Shown here piece after piece: positions 2,192 to 35,595 of a DNA stretch of 64,000 nt. The number at the start of each line of letters is the position of its first letter. The stretch's first letter is position 1. This DNA is from Rhizobium sp. WYCCWR10014 (GTDB taxonomy: Bacteria; Pseudomonadota; Alphaproteobacteria; Rhizobiales; Rhizobiaceae): NCBI RefSeq assembly GCF_001657485.1, contig NZ_LXFU01000035.1:310001-374000 (forward strand), written 5' to 3'. Both the position numbers and the translations under genes were made by a program. A model generated the notes under the pieces. It worked only from the letters and a program-made list of their open reading frames with translations. It was not told the origin of the DNA and made no database searches.

Positions 2192-3175
2192 CTATCCGAC
2201 CGGGTAAGGCCCTTCGGCGAAGACCTCATCGTGGTAACCCTTGGAGCCGACATTCAGCGCCAAGGGGCTTCGCCACTCCTTGTTGTCGCGCAGGCAATCG
2301 AGCACGAAACGGAAATCATATCGCGGCTGCCAACCGAGTTCCCGTCTTGCGCGTTCGTTGACATAGACGCGGTCGAGCGAAGGAAACATCTTCCAGCCCC
2401 GTGACGCGTAAAGGGCGCCTGCACCAGGGAGCAGTCGTTCGACGACGTGAGGCGCATCGCGCCGGATCGCGGCGAGATCACTTGCCGAAAACGGCGTCGT
2501 GGCAGAGATGATGTAGCGGCCAAAGCCGATTGCCGGCGCCTTTTCGAGCGCCAGCAGATGGGCGCCGACCACGTCGCTGATATCGACGCGGCGGTGAAGA
2601 AGCTCGTTGGCCTGGGCATTCTCTGCCGAATAGCCGTTGCGAATGTCAGGATCGTCGTCATTTTCGGGAAAGAAACGCGACGTCCTGAGAATGGCGACCG
2701 ACAGGCCGGACTTGCGGGCGAAGAGTTCGCAGAGACCTTCGGCGGCGAGTTTCGTTACGCCGTAGATGTTTTTCGCAACGGGAAGCACGTCCTCGGTCAC
2801 CCATGCCGCCGGTTCGCCGGCGGCCGGCGTCAGTGCCGCGCCGAAGGTGCTGGTGGTGCTGGTGAAGACGAAGCTTGCAACGCCTGCTGCGACCGCTTCT
2901 TCGAGCAGGTTGAGGGTGCCGGCGATATTGGTGTCGAGGAAATCGTAATTGCCGTGGGTTGCCACATGCGGCTTGTGCAGCGTTGCGGCATGGATGACGT
3001 GGCTGATGCCCGACATCGCCTGCCCGACGAAGGCGCGATCACTGATCGAGCCGACCATGTCGGTGAAAGCCGAGGGCTTGATATCGATGCCGCGCACCCA
3101 GCGGCTTTCCGCCCTCAAGGTCCGCATCAGCGCCTCGCCGAGATGGCCGGCACTTCCCGTCACCAGTATCGTCAT
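2192..3175 (-). CDS. NAD(P)-dependent epimerase/dehydratase (extended SDR)
   Basis: A 327-residue extended short-chain dehydrogenase. The nucleotide-binding glycine motif GSAGHLG lies at residues 6-12, and the catalytic Tyr-x-x-x-Lys appears as YGVTK at about residue 137, with the upstream Ser/Thr-rich stretch FTSTTSTFG. I chose the ATG at 3175 because it begins exactly at the Rossmann strand and has AGGAG 8 bases upstream. The frame stays open to 3238, but the extra residues have no homology-like character. Sugar-nucleotide or related substrates are typical of the family; nothing here defines the substrate. The next gene upstream on the same strand is an XRE regulator, 97 bases away, which may control it. 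Confidence 0.8.
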   Translation of the reverse strand: MTILVTGSAGHLGEALMRTLRAESRWVRGIDIKPSAFTDMVGSISDRAFVGQAMSGISHVIHAATLHKPHVATHGNYDFLDTNIAGTLNLLEEAVAAGVASFVFTSTTSTFGAALTPAAGEPAAWVTEDVLPVAKNIYGVTKLAAEGLCELFARKSGLSVAILRTSRFFPENDDDPDIRNGYSAENAQANELLHRRVDISDVVGAHLLALEKAPAIGFGRYIISATTPFSASDLAAIRRDAPHVVERLLPGAGALYASRGWKMFPSLDRVYVNERARRELGWQPRYDFRFVLDCLRDNKEWRSPLALNVGSKGYHDEVFAEGPYPVG

Positions 3176-3272: not shown

Positions 3273-3809
3273 TCAGCCGATGGTCGTGACGAGGCGGCCG
3301 GCGCTGCCGTCGGAAAGCATGATCCTTTCCCAGGTGACGCGGCCGGCGGCGATCGGCAGCAGCACATTGCCGTTGGCGCCGGTATCGAGGGTCAGCGACG
3401 AGAGCCTGCCCTCATGCCAGCCGCGCTCTTGGAGCAACTGCTCGGCGGCGGCGATTTCGGCGGAGGCGTAGGAGAACAGAGAACGGCCGAGAAAGGTGCT
3501 GAGCGGCGCCTGCCACTCCGCCTGCCGCGGGCGAGAGGCGGAGAGCAGCCGGTGGGTGCGGTCGCAGATCAGATGCACCGGCCGGACTGAATCCTCGACC
3601 AGCCGCTTGAGCGCCGCATCGACTGCTGCATGTTGCGGTGAGGCGAAAATCCGTTCCAGCTTGATGGACTGCTCGGGCGAGAGAGCGAGTTGATCGCGCT
3701 CCCAGCGTGAGACCGTCGCCTGGTTGACCCCGAGGAGTTCGGCGAGATGTTGCTGCTTCATGCTGCGCAGCAGCCGCAAGCGGCGTATGCCGGCGCCCGA
3801 TATCGTCAT
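3273..3809 (-). CDS. XRE-family regulator with a C-terminal sensor-like domain
   Basis: A 178-residue protein. Residues about 5-60 form a Cro/C1 helix-turn-helix (RRLRLLRSMKQQHLAELLG, then VNQATVSRWERD as the recognition helix). The remaining ~110 residues (VRPVHLICDRTHRLLSAS onward) look like a PAS-type small-molecule or signal-sensing domain, as seen in other alphaproteobacterial HTH-PAS regulators. It lies immediately upstream of the NAD-dependent epimerase on the same strand, which may be its target. The ligand is unknown. Confidence 0.75.
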   Translation of the reverse strand: MTISGAGIRRLRLLRSMKQQHLAELLGVNQATVSRWERDQLALSPEQSIKLERIFASPQHAAVDAALKRLVEDSVRPVHLICDRTHRLLSASRPRQAEWQAPLSTFLGRSLFSYASAEIAAAEQLLQERGWHEGRLSSLTLDTGANGNVLLPIAAGRVTWERIMLSDGSAGRLVTTIG

Positions 3810-31103: not shown

Positions 31104-31479
31104 TCCGCCATCACTTGAAATTCGGACCTTGTCAAAACTTGAACTTTATGTGAAGGAATTCCCGCGCCGCAGGATGAGCGCTCTTTCGGCAGCCGGACCT
31201 TGCTCCGGTCAAGTAATCCATGGAACGAAATCTTCCAAATACAGGCTTACTGTCACAGTCCGGCACTAACGATCTATTAACCATAATAGTGTCTTACTGG
31301 GAAAGTCGGAGTTTGTGCGGTGCACGCCTTCCTTTGACCAAATTTGACGGCAAGAAGGCGGAAGATGAGCTTGGAAGTTTGACCAGGGCTTTGGGCGGCG
31401 GCCGCCGGACACTTCTTGCGAGATCAGTTTGTGCCGCCCGGTCCAGCACCGGGCGTTTGGATTCGGGGATTTTGGACCA
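31104..31479 (+). promoter_or_regulatory. Long leader region upstream of tolQ with a stem-loop
   Basis: This 376-base gap between ybgC and tolQ holds no convincing gene. An AT-rich stretch at 31262-31290 (CTAACGATCTATTAACCATAATAG) is a plausible promoter area. A GC-rich stem-loop, CGCCCGGT-CCAGC-ACCGGGCG, lies at about 31435-31455, only ~25 bases before the tolQ ATG, where it could affect translation or mark a processing site. A 90-codon frame crossing the gap has no ribosome-binding site and odd composition. Confidence 0.4.
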
Positions 31480-32199
31480 ATGGAACAAGTAGGATTGGCA
31501 GCAGCAACGACGGACGTCAGCCTCTGGTCGCTTTTCATGCAGGCCGGCATCGTCGTCAAGCTCGTCATGCTCGGGCTCATCGCAGCCTCGGTGTGGACGT
31601 GGGCGATCGTCATCGACAAATATCTGGCCTATGGCCGCGCACGGCGCCAGTTCGACAAGTTCGAGCAGGTGTTCTGGTCGGGCCAGTCGCTGGAAGAACT
31701 CTACCGCTCGCTGTCGGAACGCAGCAATACGGGGCTGGCGGCGATCTTCGTGGCCGCGATGCGCGAGTGGAAGAAATCCTTCGAACGCGGCGCCCGTTCG
31801 CCGATCGGCCTGCAGATGCGTATCGATCGCGCGATGGACGTGACGCTCGCCCGTGAAACAGAATTTCTCGGCGCTCGCCTTGGATCGCTTGCGACCATCG
31901 GCTCGGCCGGGCCGTTCATCGGCCTGTTCGGCACGGTCGTCGGCATCATGACCTCGTTCCAGGCAATCGCCGGCTCGAAGTCGACCAACCTTGCGGTCGT
32001 CGCGCCCGGTATCGCCGAAGCGCTGCTTGCCACCGCGATCGGCCTCGTCGCCGCTATCCCGGCGGTTATCGCCTACAACAAGTTTTCTGCCGATGCTGGC
32101 AAGCTTTCGGGCCGCATGGAAGGTTTCGCGGATGAATTCTCCGCCATACTTTCGCGCCAGATCGACGAGAAACTGCAGCCGCGCGCTGCCGCTCAGTAA
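31480..32199 (+). CDS. tolQ: Tol-Pal proton-channel protein TolQ
   Basis: A 239-residue inner-membrane protein with three helices: LFMQAGIVVKLVMLGLIAASVWTWAIVID near the N-terminus, and LGSLATIGSAGPFIGLFGTVVGIM and ALLATAIGLVAAIPAVIAYN in the second half. The last two carry the Thr and Gly residues lining the TolQ/ExbB/MotA channel. With TolR it uses the proton gradient to energise TolA for outer-membrane constriction. The start at 31480 gives the expected length; no strong Shine-Dalgarno is seen. TolR follows 18 bases after its stop. Confidence 0.95.
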   Translation: MEQVGLAAATTDVSLWSLFMQAGIVVKLVMLGLIAASVWTWAIVIDKYLAYGRARRQFDKFEQVFWSGQSLEELYRSLSERSNTGLAAIFVAAMREWKKSFERGARSPIGLQMRIDRAMDVTLARETEFLGARLGSLATIGSAGPFIGLFGTVVGIMTSFQAIAGSKSTNLAVVAPGIAEALLATAIGLVAAIPAVIAYNKFSADAGKLSGRMEGFADEFSAILSRQIDEKLQPRAAAQ

Positions 32200-32217: not shown

Positions 32218-32673
32218 ATGGGTATGGCTGTTGGAGGCAATGGCGGCGGGGGCGGCGGACGCCGCCGTCGTGGCGGTCGGAACAGGGCCGTGATCTCGGA
32301 AATAAACGTAACGCCGCTCGTCGACGTCATGCTGGTGCTTTTGATCATCTTCATGGTCGCGGCACCGATGATGACCGTCGGCGTGCCGATCGACCTGCCG
32401 GAAACGCAGGCCAAGGCGCTGAATTCCGAGACGCAGCCGATCACCATCTCCGTCAAGAATGACGGCGAGGTGTTCCTGCAGGAAACGCCGATCCCGGCGG
32501 CGGAGATCGCCGCCAAGCTCGAGGCGATCGCCACCACCGGCTATAATGAACGCATCTTCGTGCGCGGCGACGCGACAGCGCCTTACGGCGTCATCGCCGA
32601 CGTCATGGCCCGTATCCAGGGCGCAGGCTTCAAGAATATCGGCCTCGTGACGCAGCAGAAGAAGGACCAATAG
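32218..32673 (+). CDS. tolR: Tol-Pal protein TolR
   Basis: A 151-residue protein with a glycine/arginine-rich cytoplasmic start, then one membrane helix containing the conserved proton-pathway Asp (NVTPLVDVMLVLLIIFMVAAPMM), and a periplasmic ExbD/TolR domain ending near AGFKNIGLVTQQ. It partners TolQ in a 5:2-type motor. It is followed after 8 bases by tolA. Confidence 0.95.
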   Translation: MGMAVGGNGGGGGGRRRRGGRNRAVISEINVTPLVDVMLVLLIIFMVAAPMMTVGVPIDLPETQAKALNSETQPITISVKNDGEVFLQETPIPAAEIAAKLEAIATTGYNERIFVRGDATAPYGVIADVMARIQGAGFKNIGLVTQQKKDQ

Positions 32674-32681
32674 CGCACAAA

Positions 32682-33818
32682 ATGAAGGCCAGTGTCATCA
32701 CATCTGCTGTTTTGCACGGCCTGGTGCTTACCTGGGCGATGGTGTCGCTCGGCGCTCCGGAATCCTTCAAGGTAGAGGATTTCGAGGCGATGCCGGTCGA
32801 TCTCGTGCCGGTGGAGTCCATTACCCAGATGCAGCAAGGCGACAAGAAGGCTCCGAAAAAGGAGACTTCCGCGCCCGTGCCGACGACACGGCCGCCGATC
32901 GCACAGCCCGCCGAGAATGCCGGCGACAACAATGTCGATCTGAAGACGCCGCCGGTTCCGAACGCCAAGCCCAGCAATAGCGAAGCGGCCGCAGCGAATT
33001 CGAGCGAAAAGCCGATGCCGAAGACCGATCCGGTCCCGAACGATGTCAAGGATATCGTCAAGGAGGAAACGGAAGTCGAGCAGCCGAAGCAGGTCGCCTC
33101 CATTCCACCGCCGAAGCCGGTCGAAGTAACGCCGCCGAAGCCTGAGGAAAAACCGCCGGAAGAGCAGGCCAAGCCTGAGGAACCGCCGAAGCCGGATGCC
33201 GAGGCGCTGCCGGACAATGTGCCGACCCCTGTCGCCAAACCGCAGGTGAAGCCGCCGGAACCACAGAAGCCCGTCGAAAAGCCGCCGGAAAAGACTGCGG
33301 ATCAGCCGAAGACCGCCGAGAAGCCGACCGAAAAGAAGAAGGCCGATCAGAAGCAGGAGACGGCGAAATCCGCTTCGGCGATGAAGAGCGATTTCAATGC
33401 CGATGAGGTTGCGGCGTTGCTGAACAAGACCGATCCTTCAGCAGGCGGGGCTAAGCGCTCGACGCAGGAGGCATCGCTCGGTGCGAAGAAGAGCAATGGC
33501 GGCTCCAAGCTTTCGATGAGCGAGATGGATGCGCTGAAGAGCGCCATCGCCGGCAATTGGTCTGTCATTCCCGGCATGGAAGGCGTGAGCGATGTTCGCA
33601 TCAAGGTGCATATGAATCTCGATCAGGACGGCAACATCGTCGGCGAACCGGAAGTCGAGGCGGTCGGTGGCGATAACGAATCCACGCGTCGGGCACTCGC
33701 CGGCGGCGCTTATCGCGCCATCATGAAATCGGCTCCTTTCTCGTCGCTTCCAAAAGACAAATACGATGCCTGGAGCGAAGTCGTCGTCAACTTCGATCCA
33801 AGCGATCTAGGAATTTAG
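32682..33818 (+). CDS. tolA: TolA-like periplasm-spanning protein
   Basis: A 378-residue protein. An N-terminal membrane anchor (VITSAVLHGLVLTWAMVSLG, with the SHLS-like His at residue 10) is followed by a ~220-residue proline/lysine/glutamate-rich spacer of repeated PPKP/EKPPE units. The C-terminal domain (residues ~280-378, MSEMDALKSAIAGNWSVIPG to the end) is TonB/TolA-like. It links the TolQR motor to Pal/TolB at the outer membrane. The stop TAG is immediately followed by the ATG of a second gene carrying a copy of its C-terminal domain. Confidence 0.92.
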   Translation: MKASVITSAVLHGLVLTWAMVSLGAPESFKVEDFEAMPVDLVPVESITQMQQGDKKAPKKETSAPVPTTRPPIAQPAENAGDNNVDLKTPPVPNAKPSNSEAAAANSSEKPMPKTDPVPNDVKDIVKEETEVEQPKQVASIPPPKPVEVTPPKPEEKPPEEQAKPEEPPKPDAEALPDNVPTPVAKPQVKPPEPQKPVEKPPEKTADQPKTAEKPTEKKKADQKQETAKSASAMKSDFNADEVAALLNKTDPSAGGAKRSTQEASLGAKKSNGGSKLSMSEMDALKSAIAGNWSVIPGMEGVSDVRIKVHMNLDQDGNIVGEPEVEAVGGDNESTRRALAGGAYRAIMKSAPFSSLPKDKYDAWSEVVVNFDPSDLGI

Positions 33819-34265
33819 ATGCTGAAGAGCCTGTCTAATTTCGCGAAGTCTTTCGGGATACGTGCGGTGCTGATGGGGATCGTGATTGGCATGGCGTTGC
33901 CGCTCGAAGCAAATGCGGAGACGGTTGATCGGGTAAATGGCAGCAAGGAAGCAGCCGCTATCAGCTCGGCTACCGCTGTCGCGATGCGAGATGCAATCCA
34001 AAGGCAGTTCAATATCGATACAAGGCTGGAAGGCATCGGCAGCGTGCGTATGACGATTCACCTAAAGCTTGATAGAGATGGCAAGATCGTAGGCGTTCCT
34101 GACGTGGAGGCCAGTGGTGGTAGTGAGAGCACGCGAAAAAGCATTACCAATGCCGGCGTTCGCGCAGTTCGTCGCGCAGCTCCTTTTACGATGCTTCCAA
34201 AAGATAAATATGATGCCTGGAAGGAAGTTATTTTGAACTTCGACACCAGCGCTCTTACGCAATAA
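33819..34265 (+). CDS. Extra gene: TolB-like signal peptide fused to a TolA C-terminal domain
   Basis: A 148-residue protein between tolA and tolB. Its first ~32 residues ([18 protein letters not shown]...) resemble the TolB leader ([18 protein letters not shown]...). The rest matches the TolA C-terminal domain: [16 protein letters not shown] versus QDGNIVGEPEVEAVGG, and [20 protein letters not shown] versus [20 protein letters not shown]. At DNA level 26 of 28 bases agree between 33747-33774 and 34194-34221. The gene uses more AT-rich codons than its neighbours. As a free periplasmic domain it could bind TolB, Pal or phage and colicin ligands without the motor. It abuts tolA and lies one base before tolB. 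Confidence 0.88.
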
Positions 34266-34266
34266 G

Positions 34267-35595
34267 ATGCTGAAAGGCTTGTTTGATATGGTCAAGTGTT
34301 CCCTTATCCGCGCGCTCGTAGTCGCCGTAGGCATGGCTGCCGCCGCTCTTGTTGCATCGCCAGCGAACGCGCTCGTCGAAATCAACATCAACAAGGGTAA
34401 TGTCCAGCCGCTTCCGATCGCGGTGACTGATTTCCAGGGCGACATGGGCGCGCAGGTCTCGCAAGTCATCGCCGCCGACTTGCAGCGGTCCGGTCTCTTC
34501 GCACCCATCAACAAAACCGCCTTCATCGAGAAGATTTCTAATCCCGACGCTTCGCCGCGGTTTGAGGACTGGAAGGTCATCAATGCCCAGGCGTTGGTCA
34601 CCGGCCGGGTTACCAAGGAAGCGGATGGCCGCCTTCGCGCCGAATTCCGCCTGTGGGATACTTTTGCCGGACAGCAGATGACCGGTCAGCAGTTCTACAC
34701 GCAACCGGAGAACTGGCGCCGTGTGGCTCACATCATCGCCGATGCGATCTACAAGCAGATCACTGGTGAGGAAGGTTATTTCGACACCCGCGTCGTCTTC
34801 GTCTCCGAATCCGGCACCAAGCAGCAGCGCAAGCGCCAGCTGGCGATCATGGATCAGGATGGCTTCAACGTGCGCATGCTAACGGATGGCAGCGATCTCG
34901 TTCTGACGCCGCGCTTCTCGCCGAGCCGGCAGGAAGTGACCTACATGTCCTTTGCCAACCAGCAGCCGCGGGTCTATCTGCTGCAGCTCGAAACCGGGCA
35001 GCGCGAGGTCGTCGGCAATTTCCCCGGCATGACATTTTCGCCGCGCTTCTCGCCGGATGGGCAGAAGGTGATCATGAGCCTGCAGCAGGATGCCAATTCC
35101 AACATCTATACGATGGACCTGCGTTCGCGCACGACGACGCGGTTGACCTCGACGGCGGCGATCGACACGTCGCCCTCCTATTCGCCTGATGGTGCGCGCG
35201 TCAGCTTTGAAAGCGACCGCGGCGGAAAGCCGCAGATCTACGTGATGAACGCCGATGGTTCCGGCCAGACCCGTATTTCCTTCGGCGACGGATCCTATTC
35301 GACGCCGGTCTGGTCGCCGCGCGGCGATCTCATCGCCTTCACCAAACAGGCCGGCGGCAAGTTCTCGATCGGCGTGATGAAGCCGGATGGGTCCGGCGAA
35401 CGCATCCTGACGACCGGCTTCCACAATGAGGGCCCGACCTGGGCGCCGAACGGCCGCGTCCTGATGTTCTTCCGCCAGGCGGCGGGGTCGGGCGGTCCGC
35501 AGCTCTATTCGATCGATCTGACCGGTTACAACGAGCAGCTCGTGAAGACGCCGACCTACGGCTCCGACCCGGCCTGGTCGCCGCTTATGGAGTAG
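34267..35595 (+). CDS. tolB: Tol-Pal periplasmic beta-propeller TolB
   Basis: A 442-residue periplasmic protein. It has a signal peptide (cleavage after PANA near residue 37), an N-terminal D1 domain ([21 protein letters not shown]), then a six-bladed propeller with repeated SPDG/SPSR motifs ([61 protein letters not shown]). It binds Pal and TolA. Its ATG follows the TAA of the extra gene by one base, so all four genes from tolQ to tolB appear to be on one message. Confidence 0.96.

Follow-up and report, generated by a model that had tools for sequence, protein, structure and literature searches.

In Escherichia coli and Pseudomonas, the C-terminal domain of TolA (domain III, TolA-III) binds TolB along the edge of its strand β3 (available parts of PMC7391070 and PMC4339652), and the TolB N-terminus is known to have a docking role in this contact (available part of PMC7391070). 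In E. coli, the contact between TolA-III and TolB is a shared target of filamentous phages and colicins. There, the phage protein g3p and colicin N are competitors of TolB for TolA-III (PMC4339652, in the part available). In S. meliloti, the available part of PMC7327166 describes the Tol-Pal system as essential for division. Here, we describe an additional gene, called X, which lies between tolA and tolB in a 64,000-nucleotide (nt) stretch of the Rhizobium sp. WYCCWR10014 genome (contig NZ_LXFU01000035.1, positions 310,001 to 374,000 of the forward strand; hereafter the window) and encodes a TolA-III behind a signal-peptide-like leader. The pattern of substitutions indicates that X is kept as a coding gene. 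Our account of it as a whole, held tentatively and with clearly less than even confidence, is that X would be an old paralog at the tolA/tolB junction, a periplasmic TolA-III freed from the motor that works at the docking edge, where its most likely role is that of decoy or competitor.

X is an open reading frame (ORF) of 148 amino acids at 33819-34265 on the forward strand, which starts directly 3' of the tolA stop codon and ends one base upstream of ATGCTGAAAGGC at tolB. Over X residues 45-146, it is 46% identical to the neighbouring TolA (E 3e-27), and the preliminary description of the window, which had placed an extra gene with a TolA C-terminal domain at the tolA/tolB junction, is borne out by this frame and its similarity. 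About 11 residues separate the leader from the domain. TolA is the sole strong relative of X in the 7.4-Mb genome, two other places being marginal (E 0.011 and 0.018), and the GC content of X is 52% vs 60-66% in its neighbours. TolB was identified from Pfam, and the tolA product gave a partial match, below the cut-off, to NCBIfam TIGR02794; three further genes we take, from reading and recall, to be tolQ, tolR and pal. The features of the locus are as follows:

31429-32199: ORF taken to be tolQ
32218-32673: ORF taken to be tolR
32682-33818, forward strand: tolA (378 amino acids), with a membrane anchor, a Pro/Lys-rich linker and the C-terminal domain III (about 33513-33815)
33519-34420 (approximate), forward strand: divergent island covering TolA-III, X and the TolB N-terminus, from 100-nt identity profiles and pair tests
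33747-33774, forward strand: tolA copy of a 28-base near-repeat, in the LPKDKYDAW region before strand β3
33809-33812, forward strand: likely ribosome-binding site of X, AGGA, within the last codons of tolA
33819-34265, forward strand: X, a TolA-III paralog predicted to be secreted (ORF, homology, tree, model)
33819-33917, forward strand: leader of X, signal-peptide-like, 33 amino acids ending in PLEANA, resembling the tolB 5' region
33951-34256, forward strand: TolA-III-like domain of X, residues 45-146 (homology, AlphaFold2, Foldseek)
34194-34221, forward strand: X copy of the 28-base near-repeat
34267-34278, forward strand: ATGCTGAAAGGC element before tolB, containing the Shine-Dalgarno (SD) sequence GAAAGG (34272-34277)
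34288-35595, forward strand: tolB from its probable start, in an ORF that opens at 34267
34375-34425, forward strand: TolB N-terminal segment, presumed docking box for TolA, close to where the divergent island ends
from 35748: gene taken to be pal

X is predicted to have the TolA-III fold. In an AlphaFold2 model run on the alignment of the X family, 10-residue blocks from residue 51 reached predicted local distance difference test (pLDDT) values of 75-94, while the leader was modelled without confidence, and the top Foldseek matches of this model were the TolA C-terminal domains 2x9a_B, 1lr0 and 6s3w (best E 3.2e-3, probability 1.00, none with E <0.001). The first of these is TolA bound to phage g3p and the last is TolA with a TolB peptide. 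The X profile gave only stray matches among solved structures, mostly to designed armadillo repeats. Compared with TolA domain III as a family (PF06519/TIGR02794), X has the same predicted fold and order of elements and weak profile matches over the domain, remaining below the curated TolA cut-offs (18.5 of 25, and 33.5 bits vs 59.45 for TIGR02794), as does the TolA of the window itself (27.5 bits vs 59.45 for TIGR02794). The TonB C-terminal domains (PF13103 TonB_2, PF03544) are distant relatives in fold and profile, from which X differs in that both its operon and its nearest sequence are those of TolA; the TonB_2 score of the window X is below the cut-off (14.2 of 22 bits), and one of the 41 X family members scanned reached E 1e-3.

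To determine how widely X occurs, the tolA-tolB junction was read in 120 genomes of the genus, namely the window's own and 119 drawn evenly. An intact X was found in 66, a broken or reduced one in 13 and none in 41, which answers the question of its presence in other Rhizobium genomes that had been raised from the window. Twelve of the 13 broken or reduced cases have 88 to 412 nt between tolA and tolB and the remaining one, G100, is frame shifted, whereas in the X-less genomes tolA abuts the tolB element. Every X-bearing genome carries the gene exactly at the tolA/tolB junction, and a few of the 120 genomes (such as G029 and G014) have further matches elsewhere, among the matches listed. Eleven loci from named strains were also gathered by matching X and hence provide no measure of frequency; seven have an intact X (R. 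sophorae, R. ruizarguesonis, R. aethiopicum, R. sophoriradicis, R. leguminosarum Norway, and Rhizobium sp. BK650 and R634) and four have remnants (R. pisi, R. hidalgonense, R. chutanense and Rhizobium sp. L43). The R. sophorae X is 90% identical to that of the window, and the two TolA-III are identical over their last 99 residues.

X is old and occurs on each of the two deep branches of the tolB tree. With this tree rooted at its midpoint, a single gain would need 17 losses, 11 of which leave remnants, where remnant groups were counted by reading the tree. A deletion between two ATGCTGA repeats would, we infer, yield the X-less junction; loss by recombination between the two C-terminal domains is not favoured, as X-less junctions have a TolA-type tail. 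In a search of 297 genomes of the family (5 from this genus), with matches taken from among those listed, X was not seen between tolA and tolB outside the genus in 26 of 28 multi-match genomes (all but G272 and G387, among the matches listed) or at 25 sister-genus junctions, most other junctions being unread and a strongly diverged copy being able to escape. The gaps at the 25 sister-genus tolA/tolB junctions, from -10 to 117 nt, are too short for X.

Selection on X was estimated from 20 non-overlapping close pairs. The median dN/dS was 0.36 for X (leader 0.48, C-terminal domain 0.28) vs 0.02 for TolA-III, a roughly 17-fold difference; the value for X exceeded that for TolA-III in 19 of 20 pairs and was below 1 in 18. 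These numbers bear on the possibility that X is an old duplicate of low function, decaying and carried passively by recombination acting on TolA-III. Such decay would agree with the elevated median dN/dS, with X being broken or reduced in 13 genomes and absent from 41, and with a GC content at third codon positions (GC3) that is lower than that of tolB in 66/66 genomes and lower than that of TolA-III in 44/66. We nevertheless consider it improbable, given 66 intact copies spread across deep branches, a dN/dS below 1 in nearly all pairs, a ribosome-binding site kept in 62/66 and the same arrangement in a second genus.

The account of X as a periplasmic, motor-free TolA-III draws on what it has and what it lacks relative to TolA. 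The SxxxH motif of the TolA membrane helix contacts TolQ and has a role in contact with the motor. It was found in 118/118 TolA N-termini readable from residue 1 and in 5/66 X leaders, and not in the X of the window. X has neither the membrane anchor of TolA nor its long periplasm-spanning linker (domain II), carries a signal-peptide-like leader instead, and its domain is basic rather than acidic. AxA occurs at residues 19-46 in 53/66 intact X leaders, and an SD-like motif lies within the last 14 nt of tolA in 62/66 genomes with intact X, 11/13 with a remnant and 13/41 without X. X would be translated from a ribosome-binding site within the end of tolA, be exported by its own presumably cleavable signal peptide and stay in the periplasm as a TolA-III with no membrane anchor or link to the TolQR motor.

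How X arose can be approached from its leader. The preliminary description regarded the leader as TolB-like and proposed that a segment comprising the tolA 3' end and the tolB 5' end had been duplicated in tandem. From the window alone the resemblance is weak (4/1000 shuffles reach the score with MLK included, 148/1000 without it), and it is better supported across the genus. We compared 13 representative X leaders from branch 1, the window-type branch, with 15 representative tolB 5' ends, anchored at the start, and used as controls 31 secreted genes picked by a simple hydropathy rule. The branch-1 leaders matched at 0.405 over codons 2-13, a value reached in 0/1000 codon permutations (11/1000 over codons 4-13 and 33/1000 over codons 9-28). 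The branch-1 mean was reached by 0/31 controls over codons 2-13, by 1/31 over codons 2-8 and 2-28, by 2/31 over codons 4-13 and by 4/31 over codons 9-28, and the window X leader was nearer to the tolB 5' ends than all 31 controls in every stretch tested. In branch 2 the resemblance was weaker (21 controls, among them one X and one TolB gene). Homology between the X leader and the tolB 5' end is likely, though not certain.

The junction itself has to be read with the start of tolB in mind. A stop-ATGCTGAA(G/A) at both junctions, as reported earlier, is present in the window, at the tolB junction after one spacer base. CTGAAAGGC lies near the tolB start in 120/120 genomes of the genus, ATGCTGAAAGGC is unable to start TolB in frame in 25/120, and among the 25 sister-genus junctions (60 nt printed each) CTGAAAGGC occurs in 7, 4 of them without a start codon before it. 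On these comparisons, the ATGCTGAA before tolB is part of the tolB ribosome-binding site; a TolB start at ATGCTGAAAGGC is probably wrong, and the true start is likely the ATG at 34288, 21 nt downstream of ATGCTGAAAGGC. With this start, the MLK common to X and tolB is not simply a shared signal peptide. Since CTGAAAGGC is present in sister-genus loci that have no X, the junction carrying it is probably older than X.

The near-repeat that had been offered as support for copying is real, with 26 of 28 bases identical between 33747-33774 and 34194-34221, both differences being silent (GAC/GAT and TAC/TAT). As proof of copying it does not hold: block identity between X and TolA was 0.699 within the same genome vs 0.693 between different genomes, in the 21 of 31 branch-1 genomes that gave both blocks (the other 10, in which X or TolA lacked the block pattern, were left out). 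The match reflects shared protein constraint rather than recent copying, and gene conversion between X and tolA is unsupported as its cause, the same-genome and cross-genome identities being equal.

A FastTree of the genus alone (120 TolA-III and 66 X domains) has one branch that separates X from TolA-III with zero misplaced and a support of 0.948. When 25 sister-genus TolA-III, the genus g27 sequences and five stand-alone ORFs (both described below) were added, the sister-genus TolA-III nested within those of the genus and the five stand-alone ORFs were interspersed with the X groups, at support values that were for the most part too low to be usable. In an IQ-TREE analysis of 41 representatives, which included sister-genus TolA-III and was made without the stand-alone ORFs, the five window-type (branch-1) X rows formed a clade (100/99) that joined four TolA-III rows of branch 1 (81/86); the nine remaining X rows lay outside TolA-III. 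Approximately unbiased (AU) tests rejected neither a single X clade (p 0.394) nor a clade of X with the genus TolA-III (p 0.509), the latter constraint having a likelihood slightly above that of the free tree. The genus TolA-III also splits once sister genera are added, and a single clade is still not rejected (AU p 0.125); this non-monophyly fits an exchange of TolA-III alleles across genera.

The trees that include sister genera are compatible with one origin of X and with several, and with more than one source. A repeated origin within the genus, by which the window type came from a branch-1 tolA and the other branch gained its X independently or at an earlier time, is quite possible, although we put it somewhat short of an even chance: the grouping of the branch-1 X clade with branch-1 TolA-III and the separate event seen in g27 favour it, while the clean division of all 66 X from all 120 TolA-III in the genus-only tree, the single X clade that was not rejected and the possible misplacement of fast-evolving X rows count against it. 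Both sampled genomes of g27 encode a secreted TolA-III immediately 3' of tolA; its leader is unrelated, and the 5-kb stretch gave no match to tolB:

L214, 2617-3165, reverse strand: secreted TolA-III of g27, found also in L215, with two cysteines common to its own TolA

The identity of this copy to the TolA-III of the same genome is 49% in G244 and 55% in G145, its identity to the window X is 31%, and the four g27 rows form one group in IQ-TREE (100/100). Because it groups with the TolA of g27 itself, it represents a separate event. A neighbouring secreted domain with an unrelated leader, which the preliminary description had named as a finding that would speak against its proposal, does therefore exist in the family, as a case apart from that of the window.

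Secreted TolA-III-like ORFs also stand alone in genomes of the family (L216, 5949-6401, forward; L217, 4355-4714, reverse; L218, 6293-6700, reverse; L219, 5948-6346, forward), the first near a serine-recombinase-like and the second near a transposase-like ORF, both named by sight. Genome G206 has two such frames in tandem on the forward strand of L226, one at about 2429-3127 and one ending at 3555. In L224 (2696-3259, forward), an ORF in a region with phage head genes carries a TolA-III domain behind a nuclease-like N-terminal part of rhizobiophage type; in phage records it matches rhizobiophages only in the nuclease-like part, and another stand-alone TolA-III ORF had no match in these records. 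For X itself, a search of 50,697 phage records yielded a single weak match (31%, E 3e-4), viral contigs yielded no confirmed relative and PHROGs none at E 0.01, and as nothing of weight was found there, X as a phage gene was rejected. Plasmid records contained five X matches of 41-42% identity, in Sinorhizobium and Shinella records of 3.5-4.6 Mb.

These ORFs, one of them beside phage head genes, suggest another route, in which no duplication spanned the junction and X instead entered there as a stand-alone secreted TolA-III, possibly derived from a mobile element. The position of stand-alone rows among the X groups (at supports mostly too low to count), the unrelated g27 leader and the weaker resemblance of branch-2 leaders would accord with it. 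However, the window leader exceeds all 31 controls in its likeness to tolB, a clade of X with the genus TolA-III is not rejected, and the position is identical in every X-bearing genome read, so that we hold insertion to be distinctly unlikely. An old TolA-III paralog arising most simply by tandem duplication of the tolA 3' end with the tolB 5' end, once or repeatedly, is plausible, as the X leader is more like the tolB 5' end than are the leaders of other secreted genes. Of the duplication first proposed from the window, the paralogy, the exact junction position and the leader resemblance are supported, and the event would be an old one.

Regarding function, TolA-III, X and the TolB N-terminus together form a sharply bounded divergent island, whose flanks are near-identical between close relatives in 100-nt profiles. 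Between G000 and G085, identity is 0.81-0.99 as far as 300 nt upstream of the tolA stop. It then drops to 0.50-0.75 through TolA-III and X, rises to 0.76-0.84 where X ends and over the initial 150 nt of tolB, and reaches 0.95-1.00 further downstream; the profiles of G063 and G116 resemble this pattern. Between G011 and G041 only X is replaced, the TolA-III before it being 0.97-1.00 identical, and between G000 and G107 TolA-III is 0.95-1.00 identical and yet X is absent. Among pairs with a distal tolB identity of at least 0.94, which are not independent, TolA-III falls below 75% amino acid identity in 56/119 pairs with X or a remnant, 0/39 X-less pairs and 12/12 mixed pairs; finer tolB-identity bands show the same trend, and in the widest band 66/190 X-less pairs are also below 75%. 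G003, on a short contig, was excluded from these pair tests and from the consensus and TolB-box tests. Most simply read, the segment in contact with TolB has been exchanged horizontally, X lying inside it.

Within X, agreement with the TolA consensus is highest at residues 121-134 and 135-142 (0.66 and 0.58, vs 0.26-0.55 elsewhere), so that the best-kept part lies around LPKDKYDAW and strand β3. Mean net charge over the last 100 residues is +2.1 for X vs -4.5 for TolA-III, and X lies above its own TolA-III in 66/66 genomes, mainly through the loss of acidic residues that TolA retains. With opposite charges, X and TolA-III could attract each other. A charge reversal as a general property of such genes was rejected, since g27 has none (in one genome X and TolA both have a net charge of 0, in the other they have 1 and 2, respectively).

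These observations can be read in more than one way, and we rank a decoy or competitor first, a modulator second and a weakly used duplicate third. For the first, X may work at the TolA-III docking edge, strand β3 with the preceding LPKDKYDAW, and could bind ligands that otherwise reach TolA-III; these two steps are the least certain of the mechanism, together with the role they would most likely serve, that of an accessory decoy for, or competitor of, the phage or bacteriocin proteins that enter by way of TolA. A top structural match to TolA bound to phage g3p, the retained docking edge, the absent anchor and the parallel case in g27 support the decoy and paralog account. X is dispensable, being absent from 41/120 genomes and broken or reduced in 13/120, and it changes fast; a decoy role would fit both, as well as an exchanged hypervariable island.

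Alternatively, X could modulate the host Tol-Pal cycle, a motor-free TolA-III occupying the TolB N-terminus or TolA-III itself and tuning the transfer of force to TolB-Pal during division. The place of X inside the operon and the docking edge as its best-kept part would suit this role, and so would the presumed docking box of TolB, which lies in the island and has the form T(L/I)D(L/I)R in 24/79 genomes with X or a remnant vs 0/41 X-less genomes (uncorrected for kinship). Furthermore, X distance tracks TolA-III distance in branch 1 after correction for distal tolB (partial r 0.38, 0/999 permutations), and a signal-sequence-fused TolAIII releases periplasmic protein from E. coli according to the available part of PMC6195910. 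Yet the correlation is weak in branch 2 (partial r 0.13, 24/999), X is lost repeatedly (17 times if gained once), and in the G011/G041 case X alone was replaced in two genomes whose TolA-III and TolB are alike, which leaves modulation somewhat doubtful in our view.

The account of X as an old junction paralog acting most likely as a decoy has its own difficulties, and the following weigh against it. On the side of origin, (i) the leader homology is moderate, with 0 to 4 of 31 controls reaching the branch-1 mean depending on the stretch, and (ii) once outgroups are included, the trees neither bear out nor exclude that the duplication took place within the genus. On the side of function, (iii) no rhizobial phage or bacteriocin using TolA was identified; (iv) there is no excess of dN/dS, X being mostly constrained; (v) a plain mimic of TolA-III should not reverse its charge; (vi) replacement of X in G011/G041, while TolA-III and TolB stay alike, speaks against tight matching to either; (vii) TolA-III diverges even where X is present in one partner only, as in the mixed pairs; and (viii) the X-less close pairs come from few lineages. 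A broader and more speculative form of the decoy account, rather unlikely in its entirety, is that X and the two gene ends flanking it, tolA 3' and tolB 5', would make up one exchangeable specificity cassette in a docking-site arms race, in which the TolA-III/TolB pair on which phages or bacteriocins depend is varied and X is a soluble, electrostatically altered periplasmic interceptor, a natural decoy built from the receptor and apparently invented at least twice in the family.

In the literature searched, with most subscription journals outside its coverage, no description of a natural, operon-borne, secreted TolA-III gene was found, and the main text of a transposon study of R. leguminosarum (PMC5118466) contains no tolA, tolQ or Tol-Pal terms. 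An operon-borne, motor-free TolA-III, intact in 66/120 genomes and set in a hypervariable island, would make the evolution of Tol receptor decoys testable in harmless soil bacteria. Two described systems come closest to it. In the g3p/colicin N-TolAIII system, the docking site shared by TolB, g3p and colicin N is the β3 edge (PMC4339652, in the part available), the part best kept in X; X differs in being the receptor-like partner rather than the invader, and no Rhizobium invader using it was found here. The periplasmic TolAIII engineered in E. coli (the plasmid of Wan and Baneyx, as cited in the available part of PMC6195910) has the same architecture, a signal peptide followed by domain III. 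That protein is artificially overproduced to release periplasmic protein, whereas X is natural, diverged and carried in the operon, and would be the natural counterpart of the engineered protein-release TolAIII.

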